Positions 1,243-50,125 of a DNA stretch of 64,000 nucleotides are shown one piece after another. The notes beneath the pieces are model-generated. The model made no database searches. It saw only the letters and a list, made by a program, of their open reading frames with translations, and had not been told where the DNA came from. The first letter of the stretch is position 1. Every line of letters begins with the position of its first letter. The stretch is from Candidatus Poseidonia sp. (GTDB lineage: Archaea > Thermoplasmatota > Poseidoniia > Poseidoniales > Poseidoniaceae). The stretch lies in the NCBI GenBank assembly GCA_030829545.1, contig JAURAI010000002.1, positions 62,001 through 126,000 on the forward strand. Reading direction: 5' to 3'. Both the position numbers and the translations under genes were made by a program.

Positions 1243-2958
1243 ATGGCGTCCGACCTTGAGATTGCTCGCTCGGCAAAAATGGAACCCATAGAGGCCATTG
1301 CATGGAAGTTGGGCATCTCAGCCCATGAGATTGTGCCCATGGGACAGGGTGTTGCAAAAATCACATGGCAAGCACTCAAAGAACGCTTTTCCAAGCCACA
1401 GGGAAATCTCGTCCTCGTGACATCAGTGAACCCAACGCCCTTTGGAGAAGGCAAGACGGTGACCACCATCGGACTCACCCAAGCACTGTGCCACATCGGC
1501 CAATCGGCTACATGTGTGATTCGAGAACCATCAATGGGGCCTGTCTTTGGTATCAAAGGAGGAGCCGCTGGCGGTGGGCACTCCCAGGTCCTGCCAATGG
1601 AGGACATCAACCTGCACCTCACCGGTGACTTGCACGCAGTGACTTCCGCACACAATCTTCTCTCAGCCTTGATTGATAATCACATCAAGCATGGAAATGA
1701 GGCGAAACTTGACCCAACTCGAATTTCATGGCCCCGTGTGATGGACATGAACGATCGCTCTCTCCGACAGATTGTCATCGGAATGGGAGGGCCAGCGAAC
1801 GGGCACGTTCGAGAAGACCGTTTTGACATCACTGCTGCCAGCGAGGTCATGGCCATTCTCGTTCTTGCCAAAGATTACGCCGACCTACGAACACGTTTGG
1901 GTGAAATCGTCGTCGGCACGTCCACCGATGGAAATCCTGTGAAAGCGAGTGAAATCGGAGGGGCGGGCGCAATGGCTTTGCTGCTGCGACAGGCATTCCT
2001 TCCCAACCTGACCCAAACGTTGGAAGGCAATCCTGCCTTCATTCACGGCGGACCATTCGCCAACATCGCTCACGGAAATTCAAGCATCATCGCAGACCGA
2101 ATGGCTTTAGCAAGTGCAGATTTTGTTGTTACTGAAGCCGGATTCGGCTCCGACATGGGTGCTGAGAAATTCATGCACATCAAAGCAGCCACCTCTGGTA
2201 AAGCACCCGATTGCATCGTCATGAATGTCACCGTTCGTTCCATGAAATTGCACGGAGGTGCCTTTGGTGACCGCGGTGGGATTCGCCCTGACAAAGCAAC
2301 GCTTGAGGCAGAAAACGTCGAGGCTGTGACCGTTGGCGCGAAATCAAACCTCGACCGCCACATTCGCAACATGGCTGCGTTTGGTGTCCCCGTAGTGGTT
2401 TCCATCAATCGATTTACATCAGACACGGATGCAGAGATTTCAGCCATTTCGAATGCAGCCCAAGAGAGTGGCGCATCATCGGTCTGTATCACAGAAGTCC
2501 ATGCAAAAGGAGGAGAAGGTGGTCAAGACCTTGCTCATGCAGTAGTCAGAGCCGTACAGGACCATGTCGCCGCTGGCCGCCCCTTTGTCCCCTTGTTCAC
2601 GCCACAAACTGACGTGCTCGCAAAAGCCGAATCCATCGCACACCGCTTGTACAAGGCAGACGGTTTGGAGATGACTGCCAAAGCCCAGCGCGAATTGGAG
2701 CGCATTCGATCATGGGGCTATGGACACCTGCCAATATGCATGGCCAAAACCCAGTACTCCTTTTCTCACGATGCAAGCCGGTTGGGTGCACCTACGGGTT
2801 TCACCATTCCTGTGAGAGAATTCCGTTTGAACGCAGGGGCCGGTTTTGTCGTAGCCGTATTGGGCAACATGATGACCATGCCGGGTTTGCCAAAGCGACC
2901 AGCAGCCCTTGACATGGACATGGACGAAGACGGCAATCTGATGGGCGTCTTTGGGTGA
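1243..2958 (+). CDS. fhs: Formate--tetrahydrofolate ligase
   Basis: ATP-dependent ligation of formate to tetrahydrofolate, giving 10-formyl-THF for one-carbon metabolism; cytosolic. The 571 residues match the usual ~555-560 aa length and the family is recognisable throughout. The nucleotide-binding loop TPFGEGKT is at residues 65-72, followed by the conserved REPSMGPVFGIKGGAAGGG stretch and LTGDLHAVTSAHN. The C-terminal part has the typical DMDMDEDGNLMGVFG ending. The ATG at 1243 gives a normal N-terminus. The stop is 4 bases before the Pelota ATG, so the two are probably co-transcribed. The enzyme is more typical of bacteria than of archaea, which suggests old lateral acquisition and a THF-based C1 pool; that part is inference. 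Confidence 0.96.
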   Translation: MASDLEIARSAKMEPIEAIAWKLGISAHEIVPMGQGVAKITWQALKERFSKPQGNLVLVTSVNPTPFGEGKTVTTIGLTQALCHIGQSATCVIREPSMGPVFGIKGGAAGGGHSQVLPMEDINLHLTGDLHAVTSAHNLLSALIDNHIKHGNEAKLDPTRISWPRVMDMNDRSLRQIVIGMGGPANGHVREDRFDITAASEVMAILVLAKDYADLRTRLGEIVVGTSTDGNPVKASEIGGAGAMALLLRQAFLPNLTQTLEGNPAFIHGGPFANIAHGNSSIIADRMALASADFVVTEAGFGSDMGAEKFMHIKAATSGKAPDCIVMNVTVRSMKLHGGAFGDRGGIRPDKATLEAENVEAVTVGAKSNLDRHIRNMAAFGVPVVVSINRFTSDTDAEISAISNAAQESGASSVCITEVHAKGGEGGQDLAHAVVRAVQDHVAAGRPFVPLFTPQTDVLAKAESIAHRLYKADGLEMTAKAQRELERIRSWGYGHLPICMAKTQYSFSHDASRLGAPTGFTIPVREFRLNAGAGFVVAVLGNMMTMPGLPKRPAALDMDMDEDGNLMGVFG

Positions 2959-2962
2959 GGGA

Positions 2963-4027
2963 ATGAACATTCTAAAGCGGGACCTTCACGAATGGCGTCT
3001 ACGGGTTGAAACCCTTGACGACCTTTGGGTGCTTGCTCGATTGGCACGACGCGGAGTATCTGTCGCCATGCTGGGTGAACGGAGAGACCAAACCACTGCT
3101 GGAGAGGAAGGAGGCCGCTCAAAGCAGGCAGAACGGAAGAAAATGTGGATACAACTTTCCGTCCAAACCACCGAGCATCAGTCTTTTTCTGACACCTTGC
3201 GCATTCATGGCATCATCGAAGAAGCACCCATCGACATCGGAATGCATCATACCCACATGGTGGAATTACGAGATGATTTGGTCCTTTCAAACACGAAGGG
3301 GTTCTCCGAAATGGATGTGCAACTTCTCAAAGAAAGTGAATCAGCATCGAAACAGGGACAAGTCGCCTTATTGGTCGTTGAAGGTGACGAGATAATTCTG
3401 TACTTCATCACCGCACGAGGTCTTCGAGAAAGTGCAACGTGGACCATGCGTGGCGGTGGAAAGCGAGGGGATTTGAGGCAGCACGAACGCGTAGCTTCAC
3501 AATTCCGACAGACCATTGTTGACGGTTTAACCCAGCAACTTGACGAGATGATGCCCCTGGTATTGTGCGGCCCGGGAAGGAATCGTGATAGGATGCTCGA
3601 GGATTTACGAGGCGCAGGTCACCGACGCCCAATGCTATCGGTAGCCACCAGCATGGGAGGGCGAGGTGCTGCCAATGAAGTGCTTCGTGACGGCCTTGCG
3701 GGAGAATTGCTCGCTCAACATCGCATGGTCCAGGAAGTCACTCTCCTTGAGGAAGCATGGGTACGAATCTCAACCAACGGGGCGGTTGCCTATGGAGGTG
3801 AAGCCATCAAAAAGGCGGTTCAGGAAGGAGCGGTTGAACGCTTGCTCATTCTTGCTGACTTGCTGCGTGATGATACCAGCACATGCGATGGTAGCTCTTG
3901 GAGTGACTTGGTTGAACAAATCACTTCATTTGGAGGGGAGATCATTCAGTGTTCTGCTGACCATGATGCCGGTGAACAATTGGTAGGTTTTGGAGGAGCA
4001 GTGGCTCTCCTACGTTATTCGGTGTGA
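2963..4027 (+). CDS. pelA: Pelota (Dom34) ribosome-rescue protein
   Basis: mRNA surveillance factor that, with aEF1A/ABCE1 in archaea, recognises stalled ribosomes and splits them. The protein has 354 residues, the normal length. It starts MNILKRDLHEWRLRVETLDD with the Sm-like N-terminal domain (~1-125), a central eRF1-like domain (~130-250, including VVEGDEIILYFITARG) and a C-terminal eL30-like domain (~260-354, with YGGEAIKKAVQEGAVERLLI and the end FGGAVALLRY). I chose the ATG at 2963, not the TTG at 2951, because it restores the family N-terminus and has GTGAGGGA directly upstream. It follows fhs by 4 bases and precedes a small orphan by 4 bases. Confidence 0.95.
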   Translation: MNILKRDLHEWRLRVETLDDLWVLARLARRGVSVAMLGERRDQTTAGEEGGRSKQAERKKMWIQLSVQTTEHQSFSDTLRIHGIIEEAPIDIGMHHTHMVELRDDLVLSNTKGFSEMDVQLLKESESASKQGQVALLVVEGDEIILYFITARGLRESATWTMRGGGKRGDLRQHERVASQFRQTIVDGLTQQLDEMMPLVLCGPGRNRDRMLEDLRGAGHRRPMLSVATSMGGRGAANEVLRDGLAGELLAQHRMVQEVTLLEEAWVRISTNGAVAYGGEAIKKAVQEGAVERLLILADLLRDDTSTCDGSSWSDLVEQITSFGGEIIQCSADHDAGEQLVGFGGAVALLRYSV

Positions 4028-4031
4028 GCGT

Positions 4032-4334
4032 ATGAACGTGATTGAATTCTCCGACCTCGGCGAGGATGTACGGGCAAGTCTGCAAGGAAAGAGATGGCTT
4101 CTGCTGATGGCAGAAGAACTGCCTCATGCAACCGCTGCTCTCATGTTCAGCGAATTGGAAGATGTTCTGGTGGCTGTTGACCACAGAGGCCATGACGTGA
4201 AAGATGGCTTGTGGGCACGTGCAGTTCACCTTCTCATGGTCGATGATGGGACCGAAGAATCCCAATTACAACGCAGTACTGGCATCTCAAAAGTCGTAGC
4301 AGGAAACGATGACGTCTACGCTCATTTGTGGTAG
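4032..4334 (+). CDS. Hypothetical protein, 100 aa
   Basis: Not recognised. It is a short soluble acidic protein beginning MNVIEFSDLGEDVRAS with mixed alpha/beta character (WLLLMAEELPHATAALMF; VLVAVDHRG; AVHLLMVDDG) and no signal peptide, TM or cysteines. The ATG at 4032 lies 4 bases after the Pelota stop, which supports co-transcription; a longer start at 3990 would overlap Pelota by 38 bases. Its stop codon TAG (4332-4334) abuts the 3' end of the opposite-strand tRNA-Val at 4335 with no spacer. Confidence 0.6.
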   Translation: MNVIEFSDLGEDVRASLQGKRWLLLMAEELPHATAALMFSELEDVLVAVDHRGHDVKDGLWARAVHLLMVDDGTEESQLQRSTGISKVVAGNDDVYAHLW

Positions 4335-4407
4335 TGGGTCTGGAGGGACTCGAACCCTCGATCAACTCCGTGTAAGGGAGGTGTCATAGCCACTAGACCA
4401 CAGACCC
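4335..4407 (-). tRNA. tRNA-Val (anticodon UAC)
   Basis: Read on the minus strand, 73 nt fold as a cloverleaf. The acceptor stem is GGGTCTG/CAGACCC with discriminator A, the D arm contains the AGTGGC loop, and the anticodon loop is CTTACAC (positions 32-38), giving anticodon TAC. The T arm holds GGTTCGAGTCC between GAGGG-type stem bases. The anticodon stem has one mismatch at its outer pair (C27-T43). CCA is not encoded. It is convergent with the 100-aa gene, whose stop codon touches the tRNA 3' end. Confidence 0.95.
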
Positions 4408-4487
4408 ATACGGCCCTGTCGGACTCCCTTTTTCAAGAGTGCGACGAATGCGGTAACCTCAAAACAGGTAGCGATGAGCGTTTGTCA

Positions 4488-5183
4488 ATGGATGCCAATA
4501 TCCAGGCGGCTGCCACACGACTCGTTCGTAAGTTGAAAAGCGGAGGCTTTTCGTTAACCATTGCTGAATCCTGTACGGGTGGCTTACTCGCCAGTACCTT
4601 GACCGACATCACCGGAGCAAGTGCATGGTTTCGCCAATCATGGGTCACCTATGCAAACGAGGCGAAGATTGAGGTGCTGGGAGTAGATCCCGACGACCTG
4701 AATGCTCGTGGAGCAGTTTCTGCTAAAGTCGCCATCCAAATGGCTCAAGGGGCATTGAAGGCTGCAAAAGCAGACTATGCCATCTCTGTCACCGGTATTG
4801 CCGGACCCACCAATGAGGGGAGCAGTAAGCCTGTTGGCACGGTATATGTTGGCATTGCATCCAGATTTTGGGCTGAAGCCAAGCGAACACAAATTGGTGG
4901 AACCCGTGCAGAGAATAAAAATGGTTTTGTCCACTTCGCACTTCGTACGGCGATGGAATGCTTTGAAGCAGCCATGAACCGAGAAATCGCAGAAGGTCTC
5001 GAGGCGGAAATGGCAGAACTTGAAGCTCAGCGCAAGAAAGCGGAAATGGAGGCTGAGCGAGAACGGCGCGACCAAGAAGCTCGGGAAAATGCCCCTTGGC
5101 AGGATGAGGCTTGGTCAGAAGGCGATGGAGAACACTCTGATAAAATCGGCTTGGAAGTCGAGTGGAGTGACAGTGAGGAATAA
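4488..5183 (+). CDS. pncC: CinA C-terminal-domain protein (PncC-type nicotinamide-nucleotide amidase) with charged tail
   Basis: The family deamidates nicotinamide mononucleotide to nicotinate mononucleotide in pyridine-nucleotide salvage. Residues 1-~165 form a complete CinA_C domain: catalytic region AESCTGGLLAS with SCTGG at 28-32, then RGAVSAKVAIQMAQGA, SVTGIAGPT and PVGTVYVGIA. The last ~65 residues are an extra, very charged tail, first a Glu/Lys/Arg-rich predicted helix and then an acidic Trp-containing end (WQDEAWSEGDG). Normal single-domain members are ~160-170 aa. The ATG at 4488 is preferred over the in-frame TTG at 4482. It stands alone between the tRNA and polB, 65 bases upstream of the latter. 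Confidence 0.88.
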   Translation: MDANIQAAATRLVRKLKSGGFSLTIAESCTGGLLASTLTDITGASAWFRQSWVTYANEAKIEVLGVDPDDLNARGAVSAKVAIQMAQGALKAAKADYAISVTGIAGPTNEGSSKPVGTVYVGIASRFWAEAKRTQIGGTRAENKNGFVHFALRTAMECFEAAMNREIAEGLEAEMAELEAQRKKAEMEAERERRDQEARENAPWQDEAWSEGDGEHSDKIGLEVEWSDSEE

Positions 5184-5248
5184 ATCCTCAACATTGCGCC
5201 AAGGGATTTGTCCACATACCTTTTGAATCGTCGGTTCTGTATCGTTGT

Positions 5249-6850
5249 ATGGGTGAGCCGTGGGCAAGTATTGCGGCTCGCTTACGGCAACAAAGGCTGC
5301 TTGCTCCAAAATCACTCCACCAACGATTGCTTGACCTCGAAAATCCGTTTGAGGTCCTTGATGCTGCTTCTGCGTTGAACATTTCATCCGGCATGTTGAG
5401 TGCTGAACAATTGCAAGAAATGATCGCCTACGCAGGCCAATCGGGACAAACCGCCTTGCCCGCAAAAGAGCCCGTCGTCGCACAAGCGCCAACAGATCTC
5501 GCCCGTTCAATTGCCCCCATCAATGAACCCGAACCAATTGACATCCATCTGCGGAACAATTTACCGGATTGGAATCAAGCAGACTTTTCAATGAACGCAA
5601 GTGATACACCCAGCGACATTACCGTTCATTTTGATATCACTGGCAATTCAGTCACCGAAGGCAAAATGGCCGACATCAATGCGTGTTTCAACGACCGCCT
5701 GAAAAGCATACGGAAACTTATCATTCAAAATTCGAAATTACCTCGCAAGCATCAAGAGATAGGCCGCTTGGTAGCAGAAACCTCTCGCTACCAGGGATAT
5801 GAAAACAAGGCTGTTGCCATTGGTTTAGTCAATGAACCGAGGTATACAAAAAACGGCCATCTCATGTGGGGTCTTGAAGATGAAACGGGAGAAATGACCT
5901 GTTTGTTGACCAAACGTAGCGGGGATGACCGAGACCGAGCCCATGAAGCCATCATTGAAGCAGGCTTGATGCCCGATGATGTATTGGGTGTTTCAGGTAC
6001 CTTCAGCCAAACTGGAGACCTGTTCTATGTCGATGATTTGCATTTCCCGCTTGAAACAAATCATCAGAAAGTGAGTTCCGAGGTGGGAGTAAGTGTTGCC
6101 TTTTTGTCGGACATTCACGTTGGCTCCAAGACATTCCTCGAGGCTCAATGGCACAAGATGGTTCGATGGTTCCACACCGACCCGCTTGCAAAGACGATCA
6201 AGTATCTGATTCTCTCTGGGGATTGTGTCGATGGTGTCGGAATCTATCCCGGCCAAGACAAAGAATTGGCCATCCCCGACCTCTTCGCACAATACAGCGA
6301 ATTTGCTCGTTTATTGGAATTACTACCTGAATGGGTTGAATGTATCATGCTGCCAGGTAACCACGATGCAGTGCGTCCAGCAGAACCTCAACCGACCTTT
6401 GAAAAAGACATCCAACAGGATTACAATACCACGACTTTTGTTGGCAATCCTTGTGACTTTTCTCTTCATGGTGTGCGATTGCTTTCCTATCATGGTAAAT
6501 CCATCGATGATTTCGTGGGAGGACTACGAACGGTCACCTATGCAGAGCCTGTTGAAGCCATGCGAGAAATGTTGAGACGTCGCCATTTAGCCCCCCAATG
6601 GGGAGGAAAAACACCGCTTTCTCCCGAGCCCGAAGACGGTTTGGTCATACGAGAAGTGCCTGACATTTTTGTGACGGGTCACGTTCACGGGCACGAGTGT
6701 GTTGACTTCAGGGGTACGACCCTGGTGTGTTCGAGTACATGGCAGGACCAAACTTCCTACCAGCGTATGTTGGGGTTCCAACCTAAGCCCTGCATGCTGA
6801 CCATCATCAATCTGAAGAGTCACAAATCAATTTCAATTCCCTTCGCATGA
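5249..6850 (+). CDS. polB: DNA polymerase D small subunit (DP1), proofreading 3'-5' exonuclease
   Basis: Small subunit of the archaeal replicative family-D polymerase; it carries the Mre11-like 3'-5' exonuclease and binds DP2. The 533 residues are a normal length. The N-terminal ~180 residues are variable, followed by an OB-fold (~185-280, ENKAVAIGLVNEPRYTKNG). The phosphoesterase metal motifs are in order: SDIHVGSKTF (~286), SGDCVDGVGIYPGQ (~323), LPGNHD (~368), YHGKS (~413) and TGHVHGHE (~475). All expected metal ligands appear present. The DP2 gene is not in the window. The ATG at 5249 follows an A/T-rich stretch without a clear Shine-Dalgarno. It is convergent with the HAD gene, with 12 bases between stops. 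Confidence 0.96.
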   Translation: MGEPWASIAARLRQQRLLAPKSLHQRLLDLENPFEVLDAASALNISSGMLSAEQLQEMIAYAGQSGQTALPAKEPVVAQAPTDLARSIAPINEPEPIDIHLRNNLPDWNQADFSMNASDTPSDITVHFDITGNSVTEGKMADINACFNDRLKSIRKLIIQNSKLPRKHQEIGRLVAETSRYQGYENKAVAIGLVNEPRYTKNGHLMWGLEDETGEMTCLLTKRSGDDRDRAHEAIIEAGLMPDDVLGVSGTFSQTGDLFYVDDLHFPLETNHQKVSSEVGVSVAFLSDIHVGSKTFLEAQWHKMVRWFHTDPLAKTIKYLILSGDCVDGVGIYPGQDKELAIPDLFAQYSEFARLLELLPEWVECIMLPGNHDAVRPAEPQPTFEKDIQQDYNTTTFVGNPCDFSLHGVRLLSYHGKSIDDFVGGLRTVTYAEPVEAMREMLRRRHLAPQWGGKTPLSPEPEDGLVIREVPDIFVTGHVHGHECVDFRGTTLVCSSTWQDQTSYQRMLGFQPKPCMLTIINLKSHKSISIPFA

Positions 6851-6862
6851 AGCAATGTTGAC

Positions 6863-7546
6863 TCATGCCTCTTGAGAAAGACCCATGAGTGGCAAAATGT
6901 GGCTCAAATCTTTGACCGTAACGACTGGAACACCAGCTTTTTGGAAGGCCTCAATAGAGGACTCGCGCGTTGGATTGAACCCGATGAACTGGCTTCCAGG
7001 AACATGCATGGAGAGATCCATCTCGGAATCTCCTACCGAAACGCAATCTGCGGCCTCAAAGCCTTGCATGTCGAGCAAGCGATGAATGATCTCGCCTTTG
7101 CCGCTAGCGTGGAGTCGACAAATGCCTTCATCACTCAAGAACCCTTTATAGTCAAAGACAAAGCCGTTGGCAATCCAATCTTCCACGTTCAACATGGCTG
7201 CAATGGAACTGACAAATACATCAACTCCAGCGCTAACAATGGCAACGTAGATGCCTTCATCATGGAGTCGCTGGACGACTTCCCGAGCACCTTTCATCAA
7301 ATTGACGCCAGCGTATGCACGAAAGATCTCATCCTGATGGATGGGATCTCGAACTGCTTTCCACAATTGAATGTCGGAGCGCATGAACTCTACGTCAGAG
7401 ATCTCGCCACGAATGAACCTGTTGAGGTTCAATCCGTTATCCGTTCCAAAGGCATCGTGGAGGGTTCGCCAAGAACTTACAGCATCTACCAGCACACCGT
7501 CACAGTCGAAGACCACAACCTTTGGCGGGCGAGTGTCTGAGTCCAT
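6863..7546 (-). CDS. serB: SerB-like phosphoserine phosphatase, HAD superfamily
   Basis: Probable phosphomonoesterase, most like phosphoserine phosphatase (last step of serine synthesis). HAD motif I is VVFDCDGVLVD with the nucleophile Asp14 and acid/base Asp16. Motif II is the Ser in AIVSAGVD, motif III the Lys in SGKGEIIHRLL, and motif IV SVGDSEMDLSM. The helical cap lies between residues ~20 and 90, as in SerB. The 227 residues fit a single-domain enzyme without an ACT domain. It is read after the giant surface-protein gene on the same strand, with 158 bases and a hairpin between them, so it is probably separately transcribed. Substrate is assigned by family resemblance only. Confidence 0.8.
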   Translation of the reverse strand: MDSDTRPPKVVVFDCDGVLVDAVSSWRTLHDAFGTDNGLNLNRFIRGEISDVEFMRSDIQLWKAVRDPIHQDEIFRAYAGVNLMKGAREVVQRLHDEGIYVAIVSAGVDVFVSSIAAMLNVEDWIANGFVFDYKGFLSDEGICRLHASGKGEIIHRLLDMQGFEAADCVSVGDSEMDLSMHVPGSQFIGFNPTRESSIEAFQKAGVPVVTVKDLSHILPLMGLSQEA

Positions 7547-7656
7547 GGTTCATCCAGCATATGCTACCTTGAAAGGCTTCGCTTGTGAACGTCATCGAAC
7601 ACCCCAAGGAGAGGAAGCCCCGTAGGACTCCCTCTCCAAGGGACACACATCCGAGC

Positions 7657-7672
7657 AGTGACGCAGGTCACT
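7657..7672 (-). terminator. Hairpin downstream of the giant surface-protein gene
   Basis: A perfect 6-bp inverted repeat AGTGAC/GTCACT with a 4-nt loop lies 33 bases beyond the stop of the 4609-aa gene, inside the 158-base spacer (7547-7704). A second, looser inverted repeat (GGAGAGG/CCTCTCC) lies around 7609-7638. No T-tract follows on the minus strand, so a terminator or mRNA 3'-end role is inferred from position. Confidence 0.35.
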
Positions 7673-7704
7673 AACCGGGCTTTCGTGTAAGACCCTCTTC
7701 AGGC

Positions 7705-10700
7705 TCAAGCCTTCTTGTCGTAGCTCAAGTCATCCCAAGTACGGAGCAAAGCACCGTCTCCATTGATTGGAGCGTAACTTAGGGTGATGGTAGCGTCGAC
7801 GAGAGGTGTGCCGTCAGGTGCGTGGGTGCGAATGAAGATCGTGTCACCGGAGTTGAAGGTCGAGATTGACCTGGATTCATTCTCCGAGATTTGTTCTTTG
7901 TTCACCGAGTCCACGAAGGTCACGAATGCATCGCTGTTGGCCGGATTGAATCCGTACACGCCATTGCTATCAGCAAGACCCACCGTGAAGGTGTTGAGTG
8001 CACCGGTAGCGTTGAGGTAGAACACCTTGACTTCAACCGCTTGAGTAGCGAGTTCAGTCTGAGATTGCTCCACTGTAATACGCCAGTGTCCTTCGTCTGC
8101 ATCGAATCCGTTGATGTCTTCAATGTCAAAGGTCACACGAGGTACACCCTTCACGTCGGTTTCTGCGAGGCTGGAAGCCCAGACGTAGATGACACCGGAA
8201 AGCACGACTGTGATGGCCACCATCAGAATGGTTGCGATCACAGGGCTGACTGCAGCGTCGTCTTCGCTCATGGACTCAACTTCTTCTTCATCATCAGCAC
8301 GGCGGCTGGAGAAGGAGAGAGCGCTCACAAAGAGACCGGTGAGAGCCACTGCGACAATGCTTGGTGCGAACGATGGCACGGAGCTTGCTCCGATCGTTTC
8401 GACAACATCAGGCAAGTTCTGGCTGGTTGCCAAGAAGTTGCTCGATGGCTGGTTGGCGTGGTTGCACACGTCAGCGGTAGCCAAGGAGGTCATGATGTTG
8501 TTACACCAGTTGCTGTCTTCGAGCAGTGGTCGGCGCTCGGAGGTCTTCGTTGCGTTCTTACCGTATTGACCAGGCTTGGACCATGGGTCGTCACTTTGCA
8601 CATTGTTGATGATGGCGTAGTGGGATCCAGGTTCGTCGGCTTGGAAGCGGTCTGCAGTTGTCACTGACATGTCACATGGGTTGGCCAAACAGGTCACAAC
8701 GTCCATCTCAACCCAAACATGGGTTGTGTCTTTGGTGACATAAACATCTTCGGTGTACTTGACGGTTGCACCGTAATCAGGCACAGCGTAGTAACGAGTC
8801 TGTTCAACATCATCATGGCCGTCCGTGTGGTACGTGATAGCCAACATGTGGTCGTATCGGTATGGACCTTCATCGCCGCCACCGTTGATACCGACGGTGA
8901 CTGGCACATAGGTACCGGTCATGACGTTGGTAACACCGTTGAAGTTGAATCCAGCTTGGTCATCGAATGCATAGTCAGGGACTTGCTCACGGACGTTCTC
9001 AACACGAACACCAATTTCCTTGGTAGCAACACCTTGCTGGTAGTCTGCAATGGCCATGACACTTGGGTCGTAATTAGGCACAAAGGTGTTGTATTCTCCT
9101 TGGGTAGTAGGTGCAGTTGGTGTGTCACGTAGAACCAAACGGATTTGACAGTATTCAGAACCAGACGGACCGATTTGGTGGATACCGTTGTTGTTCAAGT
9201 AGTCAATTTCCCAGTCGTTAGCGTTGGTAGTTGCGTCCTCAATGAGGTCAAACACGAGGTCGTCACCAACGATGGTCGTGGTGAAGTAGTTCGTGTAGAC
9301 ACATTGGTCAGTGGATTCAACAGTCCAGACAAGGTCGTCCATTTCGTGGTCGATGTCCGTCTTGATCGCAGACATGTCGTAGGTCAAGTTCGCTACGTTC
9401 TCGTCATCTTCCATCAAGGAGATGGACCATGGGAGAGCAGGGATTGAACCGTTGTCAGCAACCATAACCGTCTCTGTCGTTCGGTTCCAGTCAAGGATGA
9501 CTGGAGCGTCGTTGACTGGAGCAACGGAGAACACAACATCGAGAGTATCGCTGTTTTGGTTCTCGGCACCGTCGTCAGCAAGACCGAGGGTCACCGTACA
9601 CTTTCCACCCAACTCGTTGTTGGTGTTTTCAGTGATGGTCAACTCGTTGTTGACGATGTCAACACTGAACGCAGAACAAGCATCGGTGGTTCCGAGGTCA
9701 ACGGCTCCGGCAGTCCAGGTGTAGACCTGTCGTGCAGGTGATTGCTCGTTGGCCATGTCACGGATGTAGGAACGTGTAGCGTTCGACACATCGCCGAGGA
9801 ACTTGGTGTGTGTACCAAATCCTTCTGGCAGGATGTTGTAGTTGCTGTCATCTTCGGAGAAGATTGGCATACAGTCAGAGCGCTCAACATTGCAGATCAC
9901 TGGTTTGTCGTTGATGTTGTTCACCGTGTAGGTGATGTTGTGGCTGTCAACCAGTCCGTTGCTGTCTGTCACTTCGAAAGAGAAGACCATGTAACCGAAT
10001 TGGTCTGTGAGCGGCGTGATGGTAACATCTTGGCCGTTCTGAGCCCAATCAACGAGCACGTTGTCGTGAGCGACGAGTGTGCCGTCGGTAACAACCCAAC
10101 TCAAGGAGGATTCCTCATCTTGGACGTCATCTGCGAGGTCGGTAAGGCTGAAGGTGAAAGAACCAGAGTCCTCATCCTTCGAGAAGTCAACCAATCCGTC
10201 GTCAGTGTCGGTACCTTCAGTGTCAATAACTGGGCAAGCACGCAAGATGTCAATGGTACTGCGGACATCTGATGTGTCTCCAGTTCCTGCGACATATCCA
10301 TCGTTGAACACGACGTTGGTAGCCATTGAGATATCATCAACGGTAGCCCAGTCGTAGGCACAGTCAGCAACAGTCTTGACCATCAAGTCGTAGTTCTTCT
10401 GACCTGAGGCTGTGGCGCTACCCTTGTAGGATTGGTAGACCAACACTTCGTCGCTGAGTGAACCACCGGTCAAATCATCGTGTGTCAATTCAACGGTCAT
10501 GAACTTGGACAAGTTCTGGAGCGTTGCTGCACTGTCGAGGGTTTGCGATGGGTGAGCCACACTGATGTCAGCGGTTGTCTCGCTTTGCACCACTGCGACG
10601 ATATCGATCTCAGATGGCATGCCACCGATTCGGCTCCATGGGAGCGAAATCTCAGCAAGCGATGTTGAGAAGTCAACGTCGACGTTAGCAGTGCTCAAAC

Positions 10701-13700
10701 TGGATGGTCCCCAGCCAAGGAAGCCGTAACTGTAGAGGTCATAGGAACTCTCACTGTCAGCCCACAACACGTAGTTTGCGTTGAATGGCAGGTTGTGAGC
10801 TCCACCGAGTCCGTTGTAACCAACGTCTGAACCACTGCTGTCGGTGCTGATGTAAATCAGGACGTCAGAGTTGGACAGGTCACTGTTGGTCATACCGAAG
10901 TACATACCGTCACCTTCGATGTAGGTCACCAAGAAGTCGTCTGTTCCGTCACCGCTCATGGTACCGGGCATTGCGTAGCCTGATGGGTTGAGGGCGTTTC
11001 CACCGACCCAATCATCATTCGAACCGTCAACAGACATTGCTTCAGGCTGGAAGGTGGTTGAGACATAGGATGCACGTTCCTTGTCCGTAGACATGAGAAG
11101 CAGAGCAACATCACTGGTTGTAGAAGCACCCAAGTGGGTGGCCTCAATGGACATCAAGTTCGCTTCGTCAATGACTGCAGATGTTGCAACGTTGATCTTC
11201 GACGGGTCCAATGTGTTTCCAATCGAGGTAACATGGGAGCCAGCCTGAGCGTCAATCTGGACGCTTGAAGCGGACCAGGTCAAGTTCTCAACACTGCCTT
11301 CTGCATCCTTAACGGCAAGGGCTGTTGTAGCGTCAGAGACACCACCGTCCCAGCGGAATGGTGTATTTTCAACATACATACCGATGTAACCAGATGCATC
11401 CATTGGGTAGACCCACACATCGTCACTGTTGATGACGTGCAGACCGGTACCGGTGCTTCCACCGTCAACCGATGCGTCGATTGCAATGACGTTGACATCA
11501 TCTGCGTAGACTCCGTAATCGGTTCCAGCAATGGTTGCATCGCCAATCAAGACGAGGTCACCGTTTTCCTTGTCAACACCAGTGGCGAAGCCGCTGATGT
11601 CAGTTCCATTAAGGGTCAAAGGATTGTTGCTGCTGTCAGTCAAGATACCTACAGTCGAAGAGGTGCTTGAACCCGTGAGGGTTGAACCGACGTCACTGTA
11701 CGAACAATCCTCGATCACGATGGCATTGTCACCGAGCGTGATTGAGTTAGCACTCGATTGAATGCTAACACCATCACAGTCAATAGCGGAAATACCCACT
11801 GCGTTCGGTGAAACACGACCTGCTGAGAGACCGATGGTGTTTCCACTGACATCAGGTCCAGCATATGCGGAGGAGCCTGATGAACTTTCAAGGACATCGA
11901 TGTCTGCACCACCGTCACCCCACGAGTCCGAAACAACGAGGGTGTAATTGCCCGCATCGCTGTAAGTTCGTAGTGGTGAATACAAGAAGTTGCTACTGAA
12001 GGAGTAGGTTCCCCATGTGTCTTTCGTGCCGTCAGGCTTGGTGACTTCCAAGCTGATTTCGTAGCCCCAACTGTCTGTTCCGAGATTGAGGTCAGCACTC
12101 TTGCCAGCGGCAAGTGTCCATGAACAGGTATCAGAACTTCGGTAATCGCTTCGGCCGATCGAACACAACGAGGACGTAGGTGATGGAGGAGCCTCCATAC
12201 CATCGAGGTAGATACCACCATCAGCATCCGTGAGGGTGTTGTCGGTGATGTCACCACTGCCTTCGCTGATGGAAATACCAGTTGAAGTTGGGTCAGCGAT
12301 GCCACCAATATCGTTGCTGTCAACGGTAAAGTTGTAGACTCCCACGAGATAAATTGCATCATTTCCGCCAGTGATATCGTTGTTCTGAATCAACAAGTCC
12401 GCTGTGCCACCTGGGTACACTGCAATAGCATGGCCGTTACTTGGACTCATGTCGTTGCCTGAGATTTCAACACCTTGAGCTTCGTTGGAATTGTAGAGCC
12501 AGATGTCAGCAATTTCTCCACCCTTTGTGAAGGTGTTGTCAGCAATGGTCATGTTGTCTGCTCCAACCTCGTTTGTCTTGTGGCTGTAGTAGTATGGCGA
12601 ACGTTCGAGCATCATACCGACACCACAGTTCACGAAGTTGTTGTTGCTCACAATGTTACCTTCTCCGCCACCGATGACCATACAGATGTCGGTGTACTGG
12701 ATAGCATTGTTCAACTCAGTGTATCCTTTGAAGTGGACAAAGGTGCTGTTTGTGATTTGGAAGTCATCCAGTTCGTAGCTGTTGTAGTAGCCGTAGCCCA
12801 TTGCACCGTTCAATGTCGCGATACCAGAAATGGTCGTGTTGTTCATGAAGGTGTTCAAGGAGTAATATCGGTATCCGATGTTGAATCCTTGAGGATCGCC
12901 TGAGTCACTGACCGCAACTGCTGTCACGGTTGCATCGTTCATGTACAATGTTGTTTCACCGCTGTAGTAAGGATACATACGGTTAGAATTATCGAAATCA
13001 TAGGATGCTGTAGAGATCCAGGTACTTCCGTTCCAGTTGTGCTTGCCAGTGGCAAGATACATGAATGGAGCGTCCATCATGACGGTCTCGCCAGCAAGGT
13101 CGTTTCCACTGTGACTGCGTAGGTAACCGTATTCGGTCATCTCGTTAGCCTGTCCCGAATTGAAGACTCGGCTACCGGTTGAGCTGAGGAATCCGGAACA
13201 TGGTGCAACGTTCACGTATGACGTTGAGGAGTCACAAATACGAGCCGTGAATGAATCTTCAAGGTACATCGTATCGGCATTTCCAGCGGAATCAGTCAAA
13301 CTAATGTCGTGGAAGTCGTAACGGAAGTCAGCGTTGTTGACGCTGCTGCTCGTCCACGAATATGCGATCTCCGCCACAGCTACTGCACTGTAACCACCAA
13401 GGTTGAGCACACATACGCTAGCGCAGGATCCGCTGTCGACAGTTTGTGTAGTGTAGGTCATATCGTGAGCAACACCGTTAGCGTCCGTTTCAGCCATTCC
13501 AGCCACTTCACCTGAAGCATCCTTGAGTACGACGTTGGTACCCACGACATTTTCAGCGACGTTTGATACATTGGCTTGAAGAGTTACGTCTACTTGTCGC
13601 ATACGCAAGAATTCACCAGTACCTGTCACTTCAATGGTAGATGTATCTACGCTTCCCTCAATGTAATCCATCACTGAGGAGCCAGAGATAACAACATCCT

Positions 13701-16700
13701 TTGTGTTGCTCATCGTTACATCAGTGAGAGTGAAGTCACCATCACCACCAGCGTCAATTCCAACTGCGTTGTTCTGAATGGTCAAAGCATTCATTGTGAC
13801 ATCTGAATCAGTGTTGCTGCTGTACTTGAATGCTGCACCAGCGGAACCAGTGATGGACCCCGTTAGGTCGCCACCAAGGTCGTTTTGATAGTAGATTCCA
13901 GCAAGCAATTGATTTTCGAGGTCGATGTTCTCGAGGTCAACACCGCCAGAGGCAGTTTGAGCGACGAGTACGCCGTAATTACCACCAGAGACGTTGAAGC
14001 GATTGGTTGTCACGGATGATTGTCCAACGACATTCAATCCAGCTTGTGTAGGATTGGTGACATCAATATCTTCAAAGTGGCCTGCAGTAAAGGCGCCACC
14101 AACTTGGACACCGTAATCGGAACCAATGATGCTACCTTCCTTGAACAGAGGAGTACCAGATTCTCGCATGTAATCACCAAGATCGCCAGGGTTGTTACCT
14201 GCACGGGCTACGAAGTCGTAGCGGTCCTGGTAATTGTCTGCTCCACGGTGTAGGACATCCATCCACAAGGTGAGCTTGGAGATATTTCCGCCGTTAGCAA
14301 CGGAATTGGAGATGTCAACGACCGGGAAGGTCATACGAGCGCCCTGTCCTGAGTTCATGTAGTAGGTGTAAGCATAGTCGAGGCAGACACCGTAGTTGTT
14401 GGGGTAACCACCGGAAGCATAACTTGGTGGACTTCCAACGTTTCCAGGTTGACCAGGACCACTTGATGGTTGTCCGTTGCTTCCTTCAGGAGGTGCGTAG
14501 ACACCGTTGAAGTAGAAGGATGGGGAGTAGTAGCCCCAGTACTTGTACGGATAACGTGATTGGTAAGTTCCCGTAGGAGAGATATCCGTCTGTTCCCAGT
14601 CGAAACCGAATTCATCAGGTGCTTCGTAGTAGTCAGGATAACCAACGCTGGTTTGTCCTAGCCAGTAGCGGTAGAAGTAGTAGAAGTAACCGTCGAAGTT
14701 CCCGTAGTTGTCTCCGGGGGATTCGATGCCGTAGTAATTGCAATGCCATGATGGAGCACCACCGGAACCACCGTTGTAGGTGTGTGTTCCTGCGGTGACG
14801 GCTGGGTCGTTGCTACCGTAGGGGTAGTATCCTTCTTGGCCATCATCGGTGACGTTCCAGCTGTTACCGTTTTCATCTTCGAACTCAATGTTCATTCGGT
14901 CGGTGATGAAGTAGTATTTGCTCGACGCATAGTTGTAGGAAGGGTGTGCGTTTCCACCAGCCCAGATGGAGTTCGCACCCACCTGAAGGAAGTTGCCTGT
15001 TCCAAGGTAGGAAGAAAGGTCAATCTGATAGGTTGTCCATCCGTTGCTTGCACCAGATAGCGCAGTACTTCGGTAGATGGTTGGTAGAGACATACCACCG
15101 TATGCTGCGATACCAACGGTGTTACCGTTGGAGGTGAAACCATCCACTTGTGGAGCACCGTTGTAGGATTGGATACCCACAGCAGCATCCTTCACCATCA
15201 CGTCATTGACTGTAGCGCCAGCGTTTTCGATCCAAAGAGCCGTTCCGGTTTGCCCCGTGTTGATGATGCTGGATGCACTGATACTCAATGAACCGCCATC
15301 AACCTTCACGGTTGCCATTTCATCAGATGACGCAGTTGAACCGAAGATGGTTGCTGAGTCAAGCATGGTCAAGGAGGCTCCATTTCCGATAAGGAGTGCA
15401 GCATCAGTAGCCGTGTCTTGAGCAATGTCACGCATGTTAGCGTGGTCAAGTGTTAGACTACCACCGTTTTGGATGTCAAGGTGCAGGCCGTAGGTCGGGG
15501 AGACCGCACGGATAGCAGCTGGGTTTCCAGAGGTTCCGTCATCGTTCGCCGTGATGGAGCCGCCATCCTTCAGCACGATGACTGGAGTGGATGTGGCGGT
15601 ACTAAGCACACGGAGCGAACCACCTTGAATTTCAAATCCACAACCATCGAGCATAAGATCTGCTGCGACGGTGATGGAAGTATCATCAAAGGTGAACATG
15701 TTGGTTGAAGCATCGTAATTTCCGGACAAGTTGCTGTAAGCAGCATCGTTGATCAACTTGTAACAGTCGAGCGTGGGGTCGTTAAAGACAATTGGAGCAG
15801 GCTCAAGGAGCAAGTCCAAGTGAGCTCCCCATGTGTAGCCGCCGCTAGGATACCAGTCGCTAGCGAGAGTTATGTCTGGGTAATCATCAGGGTATGTCTC
15901 ATTTTGACCTGCGGTACCGAATGCACGGACGACGTGGTCTGCATAAGATGTACCATCGCTGTCCTCGACAACGACCCAAACGCTCGTATTTCCGTCAGCA
16001 TCGGTTATGTGCCTTCCAACCTGGAACAACTCGTTGTTGTTGCTGTCCAAGAGGGATGCAGTCACGACGTGATCGGCTTTGTACACACGGGTTTGCTGAC
16101 CGTTGATGGTTGCAAGACGGTAGAGGGATGCGTTAGCCAGTCCACCAAAGTAAATCATGGATGGATTGGACAACGATGATGAAACATCAAAGGAACAATC
16201 ACCTGTATCTCCGCTGGAGTCAGAACAGTCGTTGCCGTTGATTGCAACATCGATCAAGACGACATTGGTTCCCGTACGTGCCTTGGCGACGTAGGGGCCA
16301 GTGCTGCTAACTACAGAGCTTGAGATGGTCGATTCACCGATGGCGATGTGTGTATTACGACCGTCAAACACGTGGTCCGTGGTTGAACTGTGTGTAATTG
16401 TTGCATCGCTGATGGTCACCATGTTCTTTGCTGTGGCACAAGATGCTGAACTCTTGAATGAATCAAGAGAAGGAGCATCCAGTTCCATAATCCAACTGCA
16501 ACCAGTCACTGTGAAAGCCCCAATGTCGAAGTTCTCCATCTCCATCACTTCGTTGGTGATGGCGCTACCAGTGAGCGTAACATCGCCAGCCGTGATGTCT
16601 GTAAAGGTACCTGGATGGATACGTTGCATTGAGATATCGCCAGCCGTGATGGTGTCAAGAACAGCATTTGTACTGGAAGGCCCATTGCCTGTCTGCGAGG

Positions 16701-19700
16701 TTCCACCTGGAACCACCATCATATCAGCAGTACCGAAGTCAACGTCCATGAGGATCATGCTATCCATTGCGAAGATACTCACATCAGCATAGGAATCAAT
16801 GTCCACGTTGTTGATGTAGACATCAGAGCCTACACCGGCATCGGATTTGATTGCCGCACCGGTTTGAGCTGCTGTGTTGGTCACAGTCACATTGGACACA
16901 CGAACGTCTTGAAGGTCGATATTCACGAAGTTGCGATATGCGTTTTCAACAGTGAGGTTTTCCGCCACAAGCATTCCTGAAGAAGAACCAGCAACGCTCA
17001 TGATTGCACCGTCTCCGACGTTACCATCAGTGTTACAGTTCTTCATGGTACCCTCGAGGAGTGTAGCCATGGTGTTTTCTGCGAAGTAGAAACACGATTC
17101 ATCAACACCGTCAATGGTGAAGTCCATCATTGTGACAACCGTTCCTTGACCGCTGCCGTGAGTAAAGACTGCACCGACATCGGTGAAGGTGACTTCAGAC
17201 ATGGTGTAGTTACCTGTGTTACAATCCGCTGTGGAAGAACCACAAGACGGACCGGAGCCGTCATGACGGCTTCCTGAACGGAATACAGCATCTTCAGTGT
17301 TGTTGAAGTTCACGTAGCTAAATTGGTGTCGATCGTCGGTTCCGCCAGATGTAGTACAGTCGTCAGTGAACGCCATACCTAGCCAGTCAGCACCGTTCAT
17401 TCCGGTGAAGTTGATTGGGTTGGATGAGTTACCAATAGCTGTGAACTTGGTACAAGAACCGTCGAAGGAAATACCCTTTCCTGCAGCAATTTGAATTTGC
17501 ACACCAGGCTCAATGGTCAAGTCGGAACTGACCGTGAGGTACTTGTTGGTAGGGTTGATTCGAATTGGGCTGTCGGTAAGGTCCCAGTGAGGGTCAGAAG
17601 TGATGTCGGAGGTGACATCAGTTCCCTTGCCTTCGTAAGGCATCACACGGTAGTATGTTGAACAGTCAGTGCTCGAAGTGGTGTAGCAGTAGTAAGCGTT
17701 GTATCCAGTCCAGAACGGAGCGATTGTACCCGGTCGAGCAAGGCTTGAACCGCTGTATGGTAGAGCAGGTTGATGGTAGGTCCAAAGGTTACGCTCAAGG
17801 TTGGTATTTCCGTTGTCAATGAAGTACATTGAACCTTGTCGGCTGAGTTGGATACGGTCGTTGCTGTCATCACCATCGTAGGTGGTACCGAAATACTCGA
17901 ATTCGAAACCAGCAGGGATGTCAATGTTAGCGTTACATCTGTTCTTGTTGGTGTTCCAATAGTAGGAAGACATACAGTAGTAGAGGTATGGTCCTCCGTT
18001 GGAAGTTCCTGAGAGAGCAGTGTTAGCATTTGCAAGCTCAACGAGTCCCTTATCGAAGGATTCCCAGCCGTGGCTTGTGGAATCTGTTGAGATACGGAAG
18101 TTCGAAGCGGTTGGTGTGTGGCCAGGGTTGCTGTTGAAACTCGTAGATGCGGAGTGAGCAATGCTTGCACCCTTGGAACGTGTTTGATCCATGTATCCAA
18201 TTGACCAGGAGTTGTAAGTAGCCTTACAGCCTGAATCGTACTTGAATTCAATCTCATTGGTCACGTCATAGAATGCTGCCTGAACGGTACATTCTGTGCC
18301 ATAGGTGTAGTATTGACGGTCATGCCATTCCACCACGAAGACCTTGTTCGGGTCGCCGCGCTCAAAGGAGTAGGTAGACGAAGTGTTCACGTTGATACCT
18401 GCACTGACGGTCGATGTGTCTCGTGAGGTGAAGTAGTATTCCACAGTGTCGTTAACTTCCAAGTCCTCGACATCAGCACTCCACGTACATTGTGAGAGTG
18501 TACAATCGGCTCGAGACTTTCCGGCTTCCTGAGTCATGGCAGTTGAGGTCCACGTACCAGCAGTACCACCATCAGGGGTGATTCGGTGATAGAGCGTAGG
18601 CCCAACACCGGCTGAACTGCTTGTGTTCAAACCTGCTGCTGGGTCACCAGCATCAAGAATAGACACCGACACAGTTCGAGTCTTAGCGTGAGAATCTTTC
18701 ATTGCTGTATGCATCATATCAGGCTTGAATGTGTCTGGCGTAGGTGCGACATTTCCGACCTTGTAAGACATGTCCCCAGTTGAGGCTTGACGGCCATAGT
18801 AACCGCTACCGAGCGCAAATCCGCTCCAGCGGTATGAACTGGGTGAGTTGTAGATCATGTAGTACGCAGAGGTACAACGGTCGTAGGATGTAGCACGGTA
18901 GAAGTAATACCATCCGTTGGTGGTCACACACATGCGGTTGGCTGTGGTCGAACTTCCAGTTGAGTTGAACTTGAAGGTACCAAAGTCACCAGTGATGTCC
19001 CCTGGGATAGCGAACTTGTAGGCTTGAGTAACACCGTATGCAAGAGATTGTGTTGGTGCTGCACCACCGGTAAGTGGTGCGTCGATTCCAGTCTCTGTAC
19101 CGACACCGACAACTCCCCATAGGTTCTTTGTGGCGTCATAGTGGTAGATCAAGTTCATTCCAGGTCCGTCAGCGGCGGTGATTTGAAGGTAGCCACCGTT
19201 GCCTACCTGCATGTTTTGATTGCCCTTGTTCGTACCGCTGTCCATACCGTAGGGACCGGTAGCAGGTGCTTGATTCCAGCGAGTAAGCCAGTTGTTGTAG
19301 AATGTGCTCGTTCCACTGTAGAAACATTGGGTAGAGCCAGTACCACAGTTTGAGGTGTCGAATTCAAAGAAGTATTCGTCACTGTCGCTGTAGTAAGTCA
19401 TTTGTCGGTCAAGGAAGCCTTGCGGGCTGTATTGGCTGCTTGCGTGCACGTCGGTAGTCAACACGGTCATCTTCTTGTGTGTTGTTGGTGCATTTGCAGG
19501 GTCAACGATGTCAACCTGGTAGGGTGTAGGCGTCGTTTGGGTACCTGTGAGTGCAGGTGTGTAACCGACGTTTGCACCGTTGCTACCTTGGTTAAGGTCT
19601 TGGTACTTCCAGTAATATCGCAAATCATCTCCGTAGGAGAGGTCATCGGTTCGTGCCTTGAAGTAGCAATCTGTAGTTGTGCTGCCGCAGGTGCCGATTG

Positions 19701-25307: not shown

Positions 25308-28300
25308 TCATGAATCACGCAGAGCCGCAGAAGGTGGTATTTTTGAAGCCTGTTTCACAGGCAGGTACGTCGTCAAGAACACGATCACCCAGCCAAGCAG
25401 GAACAAGAGAAGGGTGGATGTCCACGGGAAGGTGAATGCTGCACCCTCCGATTCCCATATTGCTTGATAGAGGGCTCTGTGAAAGCCGTAGCCAAGTAAC
25501 AATCCATTGAGCATGCCCAGCATGGCAATCCAAGATACTTCGATAAAGAAAATTGCTAGAACTTGACGTTGTCTCAAACCAATCGCTCTCAGCATACCGA
25601 TGGTGCGGCGACGCTCGCTCACGTTTCGAACGGTCACTACACCTATTCCCGCCACACCAACGAGGAGGCCCATCGCAAGGTAGCCCTCAAACAGTGAAAG
25701 TATTGCGAGTACAAGGGATTGAATGATGGCGATTTCCTCAGCCACCGTTTGTACTGAGACTCCCTGTGATGCAAGGTTTCTCGAGAGTACGTCAGCGAGT
25801 TCTGCTGCTGCTTGGCGCTCCTCTGTAGATTTGCCTTGGGGCGAAGCATCCATGGAAGAGAATTTGGCAGTGCTTGCTTCTGCGTCAGTAGCCACGCTCA
25901 CGTACATGCGAGTCATCTCTCCGCCGAATTGTTCATCCACCGTAGTGCTGCTCATCCAGACACCTGGGGAAAAGATGTAGGAGGACTGTTCAAGGAAGCC
26001 CCCAACTTGGACTTCTCGGGTATTTTTGGGGTTGGAGAAATCAATTAGCAAAATTGAATCTCCAATTGAAAATTGCAAGGGAACGATCGTGGCGCCATCG
26101 GTGGTAGATTCCAATCCAAATGAGGCATCGAGAAAGACAATATTATCGAAACGTTCAACCGATTTCCAAGCCTCTTTTTGTGTTTCACCAAGGGCCTCAT
26201 CCCACACATGAAGGGGTAAACCTCCGTGATTTCTGAACCCTTCATCCACCCCTCGTAAGACGTAGGGCATTCGTTCACCATCGCTATCCTGTAAATGAAT
26301 GGGTGAGCGATAAACGCCCCCCACTGCATCGATGTTCTTCATCGCAGAATCGTTCACACCCCACAGGCTGGTGTTGCTGTCAAGGTCGATAGGGCGGGAA
26401 CGAGAGGCGGTGAGAAGGAGCTCGAATTCCCCTTCTGCTTCCTCAACGAAATCCGAGGAATAGGTATCAAATTGGTCGGTATAACCCGAGAGGACAACCA
26501 CGGAAAACATGGTGATTGAGAACATGCCCATCACAACCGCCGTGCGGATGGGGTGAGCCAAGGGGTGTGCGAGGGCGACGGACCCGACTGGACCAATGCG
26601 GCGGGTGATCGCACGTGATTTGGAAAGCGTCTGCACGAGGAGAGGTGCGAGACTGGTCAATACCATGACCCCCGAAATCACCTGCAGGAGTCCTAACACA
26701 ATGAACGCCAGTTCATTGGCCTCCAAACGTGATCGAATGGGATCGACGGGAGCGAGGGCGATTGTCCAAAGGAGAAACAGCAAGCCGATGGCACCCAGAG
26801 TATTGCGTGGTCCGTGCCGTTTCCATCGCTTCCAAGGCTGTTTTGAACCGAGTATGACAGGCAGTTGCCAAGTGACAACGGGCGTCAGCAGAAGGATAAG
26901 GAAAGCCCCCAAGGAGACATAAGCGACGTAAGCAATCCCACTGTCAAATCCGAGGAATACAAGGCCTGCAAGACTGAGTATCCCGCCTCCAAGGGCGCCG
27001 ACCTGCAGGAGGTAGAGGCCCCAAGGAACGCCTGTTTTTAATGTCAAACGACCCCCTTTCAAGGCCCGAACAATATTGACTTGTGAGTTGAAGACACTGG
27101 CCGACCACAACAAAGCAACGGCCAAGAGCGTGCCCCAAATCCACCCTGCTGCAAAGGAGTCTACGGACCAAGAGAAACTGAAGGATTGAGCACCTGCTGA
27201 TGCAAAGATCGTCGAAAATGCACGAGAGATGACCCAAGCCAGACCAAGGCCGACAAGAGAGCCGATACCTCCAGCGAACAGCGCTAAAATGAGACCTTCC
27301 TGTACAAAGAGGGCACGGGCATCACTCCGCCGCAGACCAAGTGCTCGCACCACAGCCAATTCACTTCGCCGGACATCAGCGAGGAGCATGATAATGGTCA
27401 GTGAAAGAAGTACACCCGCTGCAATCGTGAAGGTGCCAAAAACGAGAAACATCGCCGAAAGAAGTCCGGAGGATTGTTCCGCTTGTTGAGCCGCTTGTAC
27501 TTTCACGGGTGATGCCACAAGGAAGAGGTCGTCCATCGTACTGCGCTCATCAAACCAATCTCGCAAGCTTTCCATGGTGCCAGAATCGGTCGAATTGGAC
27601 ATGCTTGAAATCAATAGAATTGAGCGTTCATCCGCCTCTGCGAGAGCAAGAAGTTCGGCATCATTGAGGCTGATGAATCCGAGGACAACGGCGTCCAGTT
27701 CACCCAATTGCTCAAATCCTGGCATCACACCATAAAAGCCTGCATAGGTCAAATCGACAGCGCTATCGTTGCCGTAGGCATAAGGGAGAATGCCCTTGAC
27801 TGAAAGCGATTGATTCTCCGAGAAGTTGAGATCCTCCATTCTGTTGGAAACAAGAACATCCCCCGCATCAACGGCAACTGTGGAATTCAAACCTCCAAAG
27901 GCAAGGAACATTTGAGGGAATTGACCAAACCCTTGAGCCTGTGACACAATCGGGAATCGTAGGCTCTCCAGTTCAAGCGTTGATGCATTCCATCTCGCCA
28001 GCCCCTCTGCATGCGTGCACCAATGCGTCGTTGGAGACATTGCAACATCGGCAATACCAGTGCAAAATTCGGGAAGCGTCGTGGTATTGACGTTGCCACC
28101 AGAAGGCCACATCGCTTCTGTCGTCGATGTGAAATTGCCCGAGGATGGTGAAGCAGCAACATAGTATTGCTTTGAGAGCAGGCCTTCGACTTCCAGATAA
28201 AGAGCCCCATCAAAGGCGAGTTCATAGCCCAATACCGTTGATGGTCGCTGGATATCGAGAACTCTTGTTGCGTTCAAGGATAGGTCATCTGTGAACTGAA

Positions 28301-45608: not shown

Positions 45609-45622
45609 GTCTCATCATCTCC

Positions 45623-47338: not shown

Positions 47339-47352
47339 TTCGCATTCCTCCC

Positions 47353-48568: not shown

Positions 48569-48572
48569 GCCA

Positions 48573-49217: not shown

Positions 49218-49218
49218 G

Positions 49219-50076: not shown

Positions 50077-50092
50077 TGTAAAAACCTCCGTT

Positions 50093-50120
50093 CCAAGATA
50101 TCACCGAAGTGATGTCTTGG
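50093..50120 (-). promoter_or_regulatory. 12-bp hairpin with cUUCGg tetraloop between archaellin and downstream arl genes
   Basis: On the minus strand CCAAGACATCAC-TTCG-GTGATATCTTGG forms 12 pairs (one is a G-T wobble) closed by C(UUCG)G. It starts 5 bases past the second archaellin stop and ends 16 bases before the next ATG. Downstream are AACGGAGG, an SD for the next gene, and TTTTT. It may end or stabilise archaellin mRNA so that archaellins are made in excess over motor proteins. Confidence 0.6.
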
Positions 50121-50125
50121 AGGGA

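Follow-up and report, generated by a model that had tools for sequence, protein, structure and literature searches.

In the surface ocean, members of the order Poseidoniales (MGII) are the most abundant archaea, and in type IV pili the mature pilin requires a free N-terminus in the filament core. Archaeal prepilins require G, A or S at position -1 of the cleavage site, and a charged residue at -2 has been called critical (reviewed in PMC4371748); the sites of Haloferax PilA proteins read DA|VS, RA|VS and DS|AV, with the bars placed by the FlaFind rule (PMC4371748). Several described systems come close to the protein reported here. In modular pilins such as PilB of Streptococcus sanguinis, a functional module, probably for adhesion, is covalently joined to a pilin (PMC8179133), as is the case here. 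PilY1 and DUF2341-type adhesins are, like this protein, very large surface proteins linked to type IV pili, but they are encoded by separate genes and carry no covalent pilin (PMC4858521). For Poseidoniales themselves, archaellum-based adhesion has been proposed in the main genome paper on the order (PMC6461757).

We analysed a stretch of 64,000 nucleotides from a Candidatus Poseidonia genome (contig JAURAI010000002.1, positions 62,001 to 126,000; hereafter the window), in which a giant surface protein ends in a pilin-like module. The features of this locus are as follows, in window coordinates.

7705-21534, minus strand: giant surface protein gene, an open reading frame of 4,609 aa with a C-terminal pilin module
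21448-21504, minus strand: N-terminal signal sequence or anchor, residues 11-29, from hydropathy (putative Sec signal)
8374-21447, minus strand: ectodomain, residues 30-4387, with a tandem-95 match
8317-8373, minus strand: first C-terminal transmembrane (TM) segment, residues 4388-4406 (SVPSFAPS...RR), from hydropathy; present in 129 junctions
8254-8307, minus strand: acidic linker, predicted cytoplasmic, residues 4410-4427; acidic in relatives and without a stop codon
8269-8271, minus strand: in-frame ATG, Met4422 (M-S-E-D-D-A-A-V-S-P); possible relic or optional pilin start, not conserved order-wide
8248-8256, minus strand: predicted prepilin peptidase site, DA|AV (4427/4428) or A|VS (4428/4429), by the motif rule of PMC4371748; A4428 in 129/129
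8161-8253, minus strand: pilin assembly helix (H-domain), residues 4428-4458, from PF07790 and TIGR02537
7708-8160, minus strand: pilin head, beta-rich, residues 4459-4609, from AlphaFold2 and Foldseek
6863-7546, minus strand: HAD-family phosphatase, the constant downstream neighbour

Hydropathy recognised just three membrane-type segments in the giant protein, at residues 11-29, 4388-4406 and 4432-4450, the last of which falls inside AVSPVIATILMVAITVVLSGVIYVWASSLAE. The second is followed by SSRRA, the acidic linker (net charge -8), DAAVSPVIATILMVAITVVLSGVIYVWASSLAE and a head of ~150 aa. A preliminary description of this DNA had given residue numbers that proved correct to within one or two residues (the TM was recomputed as 4388-4406), and had placed the ectodomain outside the cell, a short loop inside and the pilin outside again. 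We infer the same membrane topology, which fits both the hydropathy and the presence of a basic residue behind the first C-terminal TM in 129/129 of the junctions described below. The ectodomain gave a tandem-95 (cadherin/Ig-like) match near residues 3787-3882; beyond this, profile and PDB searches returned no convincing Pfam or PDB match, and DUF2341 was not matched when the giant protein was compared with Pfam. The ectodomain probably acts as an adhesin. A cupredoxin-like (amicyanin/plastocyanin) match occurs at about residues 3184-3274 of a giant orthologue from the second family (L150, genome G031), and the window protein has no recognised match of this kind. A 1,531-aa FtsX/MacB-type permease and its ABC ATPase are encoded at 25308-30631, upstream of the giant gene.

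By its sequence, the C-terminal module of the giant protein (A4428-A4609, the last 182 aa) is a member of the archaeal type IV adhesion pilin class. The preliminary description had recognised an archaeal pilin N-terminal pattern here and proposed a profile comparison of residues 4422-4609; this 188-aa piece matched Pilin_N (PF07790) with an E-value of 6.6e-10 and 40.2 bits against a cut-off of 25.2, and the full 4,609-aa protein likewise exceeded the curated cut-off (E 1.7e-8). The claim was supported by further searches. NCBIfam TIGR02537 was matched with an E-value of 1.5e-10 (40.4 against a cut-off of 20); a profile built from 42 relatives of the module, all 42 of which match Pilin_N, retrieved the solved haloarchaeal pilins 8fj5 (1e-9), 8gi2 (1.2e-6) and 9myg (2.7e-6); and a fold comparison pointed the same way. 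In the latter, AlphaFold2 modelled the mature module from 47 sequences with a pTM of 0.70 and a well-predicted beta-rich head (pLDDT mostly close to 90, with ten-residue blocks ranging from ~74 to 93), the helix itself being poorly modelled, while a longer model of modest confidence placed helices at the first C-terminal TM and the pilin helix. The first-ranked Foldseek match was the type IV filament of Cuniculiplasma (8rey, E 8.9e-4), followed by archaellins intermixed with Ig-like folds and Kir channels; since the TM-scores of the best match were only 0.34-0.44, we regard the fold evidence as supportive only. The archaellin family Arch_flagellin (PF01917) was not matched by the module, and the true archaellins of the window lie at 50126-51270. 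Pilin_N proteins have a short leader at the protein N-terminus, whereas this module begins at residue 4428. The pilin head was also matched by surface proteins of ~440-690 aa that lack the pilin helix (L310 2215-3534, L311 181-2238 and L312 1-1880; E-values as low as 5.5e-39 over A3 columns ~120-261), and the head domain could be an Ig-like module common to several proteins.

A trivial explanation of such a chain would be that assembly or ORF calling had fused two adjacent genes, and nearly all of the source genomes are metagenome assemblies. We examined how the module is encoded elsewhere in the order, as the preliminary description had suggested. Among 319 Poseidoniales genomes searched, most genera carry the module in frame as part of very long ORFs. 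This gave 129 distinct versions of the fused junction from genomes assembled independently by many groups and from many sites; all genera of one family and four genera of the other have the fusion. Where the junction DNA was read, in loci of 15 genera, it was always open, with the TM, basic residues, acidic linker and AVSPVI, and the in-frame junction is also carried by a single-contig genome (G073). On the downstream side, 100/100 loci share the HAD phosphatase gene, which indicates one ancestral locus; we treat this gene as a synteny marker and do not think that it takes part in the mechanism. With the fusion conserved across the order, chance is excluded, and the probability that it is an artefact is negligible. 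Neither of the two outcomes that would have spoken against the preliminary description came about: profile searches did find pilin similarity, and related genomes did not show the module as a separate gene whose fusion is an assembly artefact. Flags of '1 TGA', which had raised the possibility of a split gene in genus g11, mark the normal stop at the end of the pilin. Some genomes (G002, G012, G126 and G142) have the fused module twice, as copies or variants located on different contigs, representing either a strain mixture or paralogues. In 293 genomes across the phylum, the module was found outside the order, among the matches listed, only in pilin-sized frames of ~144-262 aa.

The distribution of conservation along the protein bears on what the module does. 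Full-length orthologues in other genera have 4,513-5,368 aa, and we aligned 19 full-length genes drawn from both families. In this alignment the pilin helix, 31 residues long, has a mean modal identity of 0.951, ranking first of 4,579 windows (the next best elsewhere reaches 0.793), compared with 0.68 for the preceding TM and 0.54 for the pilin head, and 23 of the 31 helix positions are near invariant. Any hydrophobic helix is able to anchor a protein, and head-like domains without a pilin helix exist in other surface proteins, so the C-terminus could be an ordinary two-pass anchor with a capped outer domain, unrelated to pili. However, conservation of this degree is more than a plain membrane anchor would require, and here the helix stays nearly fixed while the other TM drifts; together with the pilin profile and PDB matches, and with a presence that follows Pilin_N and T2SSF genes (see below), this makes a plain anchor very improbable. 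The contrast in conservation between the two helices also speaks against the alternative offered in the preliminary description, just a second TM capped on the outside.

The C-terminus also resembles PGF-CTERM/archaeosortase signals, which consist of a PSF motif, a TM and then basic residues; the likeness is a mere resemblance, and the giant chain differs in continuing into the pilin. An archaeosortase reading was rejected, as window positions 8272-8700 gave no match to an NCBIfam sorting signal at E-values up to 10, and in the sequence examined no protein ends at a PSFAPS-type TM.

Region 1000-1500 of the ectodomain is conserved across orthologues, yet in genus g10 (L316 of genome G042, 1267-8742; L251-L255) the fused chain has only ~2,500 aa and this region was not found, while the junction, the helix and the locus neighbours are kept. 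The g10 ectodomain has been either shortened or replaced, so that changes in this part of the protein are compatible with retention of the pilin. The same ectodomain region was missing from all 37 genomes tested from genera without the fusion; the giant gene is gained or lost as one unit.

We then considered the machinery that could process and assemble such a module. The window contains an archaellum operon, a candidate user of the same peptidase, with the following genes.

43806-51270, minus strand: archaellum operon with two archaellins, FlaG/F-like, FlaH, FlaI and FlaJ
50707-51270 and 50126-50710, minus strand: archaellins
48077-48592, minus strand: FlaG/F-like
47353-48090, minus strand: FlaH
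45623-47338, minus strand: FlaI
43806-45608, minus strand: FlaJ

This operon lies 22 kb from the start of the giant gene, which does not adjoin any Pilin_N-type pilus operon. Directly upstream of the operon is a 1,633-aa surface protein with Ig/NEW3 domains (52256-57157). Two more type IV pilus-type loci occur in the genome, on contigs C3 and C7, and free pilins are encoded on C7 and C12. The fused helix is identical at 29 of 31 positions to that of the C12 free pilin, at 16/31 to the C7 pilin and at 4/31 to the archaellin, whose helix is of a different class; the fused helix therefore belongs with the C12 pilin. Pilus formation in Haloferax fails when the conserved H-domain is replaced by an unrelated one (PMC4371748), which suggests that the fused module may be able to assemble with C12-type pilins. 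A candidate prepilin peptidase (G000:C21:5086-6057) is encoded on the same contig, ~64 kb away, with both Asp motifs (MDHKNRRV and GGAD) and an E-value of 8.2e-6 against PF06847, slightly below the cut-off. PF01478 gave only divergent or contaminant matches in the peptidase search, those in G302 and G214 having sequences that resemble bacterial ones, and it was a model of the divergent family that recovered the peptidase. Elsewhere in the genome, two adjoining large pilin-like proteins of 613+ and 361 aa (G000:C25:1-2922, L121) carry the motifs AVSAAVATVLLFGG and AVSEVLGVVMLLAM and are possibly a pseudopilin pair.

When compared by genus, the fusion is restricted to where pilins, pilus platform proteins and prepilin peptidase co-occur. 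In the fusion-bearing genera, almost all genomes have about three to five T2SSF platform matches; Pilin_N was detected in 207 genomes, all but one of which belong to these genera; and the peptidase, searched with a model from divergent A24 proteins, was present in 226 of the 319 genomes. Genera g2, g3, g6 and g8 have no fusion, Pilin_N, T2SSF or peptidase, with the exception of g3 genome G214, whose matches look like bacterial contamination from their sequences. Genera g4 and g22 of the second family have the peptidase and a single T2SSF match, with no fusion and, bar one genome, no Pilin_N. This pattern indicates that the fusion follows pilins and not merely the archaellum, the archaellum part of this inference hanging on the single T2SSF match.

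Whether the pilin is cut free depends on the residues at the junction. Ala immediately precedes VSPVI in all 129 fused junctions, and the edge of conservation coincides exactly with this Ala at -1, with 11 different residues found at -2. The DDAAVSP of the window satisfies the prepilin motif as DA|AV. Cutting at the Ala before VSPVI is therefore plausible from the motif, and release of the pilin seems to us about evenly balanced or slightly favoured. Against cutting, we counted the acidic character of the fused leader, whereas basic residues are usual close to the start of free pilins, and the frequency of the strict motif (charged -2 with G/A/S at -1, in either register), which is found in 59/129 fused copies compared with 34/41 free pilins of the same clade.

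These observations would also suit a hairpin that is never cut, in which the helix docks in the pilus platform or at the base of a free-pilin filament and the ectodomain forms a fixed foot or collar, or else blocks or terminates growth. The strict motif is missing in 70/129 fused copies and the helix is nonetheless almost invariant, and the linker is always there and in frame, as such a hairpin would have it. Nevertheless, a hairpin has no obvious need for the invariant Ala at -1, it leaves the motif match of the window's copy without a role, and it denies the filament core the free N-terminus that a mature pilin needs there. We consider an uncut hairpin the main and a serious rival, though on balance less likely than not.

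Alternatively, a separate pilin could be produced, also or mainly, by translation from an internal start such as Met4422, with the fusion being incidental. The sequence M-S-E-D-D-A-A-V-S-P does resemble a pilin start, and the linker contains an ATG in 101/137 distinct junctions; Met4422 itself is shared by all 20 sequences first aligned, but not across the order. However, linkers without any ATG, GTG or TTG occur in 23 of the 137 junctions, spread over at least eight genera, which rules out an obligatory internal start; an SD-like match precedes just 36 of the 101 linker ATGs; and a stop codon never separates the ectodomain and pilin parts. Production of two separate products is thus quite unlikely. 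Met4422 is likeliest a relic of an ancestral pilin start, and optional internal initiation is possible in some lineages.

We favour a model in which the junction is processed like a prepilin. The giant chain would be exported via its N-terminal signal and anchored by the TM at 4388-4406, with the short acidic loop inside the cell placing the pilin module in the membrane like a free prepilin. The prepilin peptidase of the cell would then cut, most likely at the Ala just before VSPVI, leaving the ectodomain, a probable adhesin, anchored by its own TM. The mature pilin would pass to the pilus machinery, where its helix could pack with free pilins of the same helix class. Synthesis as one chain would supply pilin and adhesin one to one in the same place, where the pilin may serve as a pilus base or primer subunit next to its adhesin. 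This model is favoured because of the pilin match, the order-wide fusion, the rank of the helix, the Ala at -1, the peptidase, the co-occurrence with T2SSF and Pilin_N, and the 29/31 helix identity. Against it stand the frequency of the strict motif, the acidic leader, the position of the gene away from any Pilin_N-type pilus operon, and the limits of the AlphaFold models, in which confidence was modest for the longer piece and the helix was poorly predicted. Taken whole, an anchored giant ectodomain with a co-translated pilin that is cut and assembled, we judge it to have an even chance of being correct. Slightly short of even is our confidence that an internal class III site in the giant polyprotein is cut so that each anchored adhesin delivers one pilin locally, a coupling not described before.

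The fusion points to a new means of linking an adhesion protein to a fibre on the cell surface. If the chain is cut, it would combine an internal prepilin site with a fixed ratio of adhesin to pilin; if it is uncut, a giant covalent foot would hold the pilus to the cell. In both cases, the locus provides a testable handle on the attachment of MGII cells to particles, and the word pilin is absent from PMC6461757. A search of the literature for a pilin polyprotein, an internal prepilin site or an MGII pilin fusion found no prior report, and no such fusion appears in the passages found in the archaeal type IV pilus census (PMC4858521); an inverted pilin fusion is apparently undescribed.

Compared with the Pilin_N pilins of Haloferax (PilA1-6) and Natrinema (PilA2), the module shares the H-domain AVSPVIxxILMVAITVxL, the Ala before VSPVI, a beta-rich head, a length of ~180 aa, and a genome with peptidase and platform genes. 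It differs in that the fused pilin comes after 4,427 residues, a second TM among them, and in that the charged residue at -2 is often absent in its relatives. Modular pilins provide a parallel for the covalent joining, and the most extreme one quoted in PMC8179133 has 860 aa, against 4,609 here. In those proteins an N-terminal pilin is followed by the module, whereas here the pilin is C-terminal (PMC8179133; Raynaud 2021). Because of this inverted order, processing would separate the parts of the giant protein, while the parts of modular pilins remain joined. Genus g13 encodes modular pilins of the conventional, N-terminal kind that reach 1,424 aa (L308 1654-5928 and L309 3097-5136), and both orders of pilin fusion thus exist within one archaeal order.
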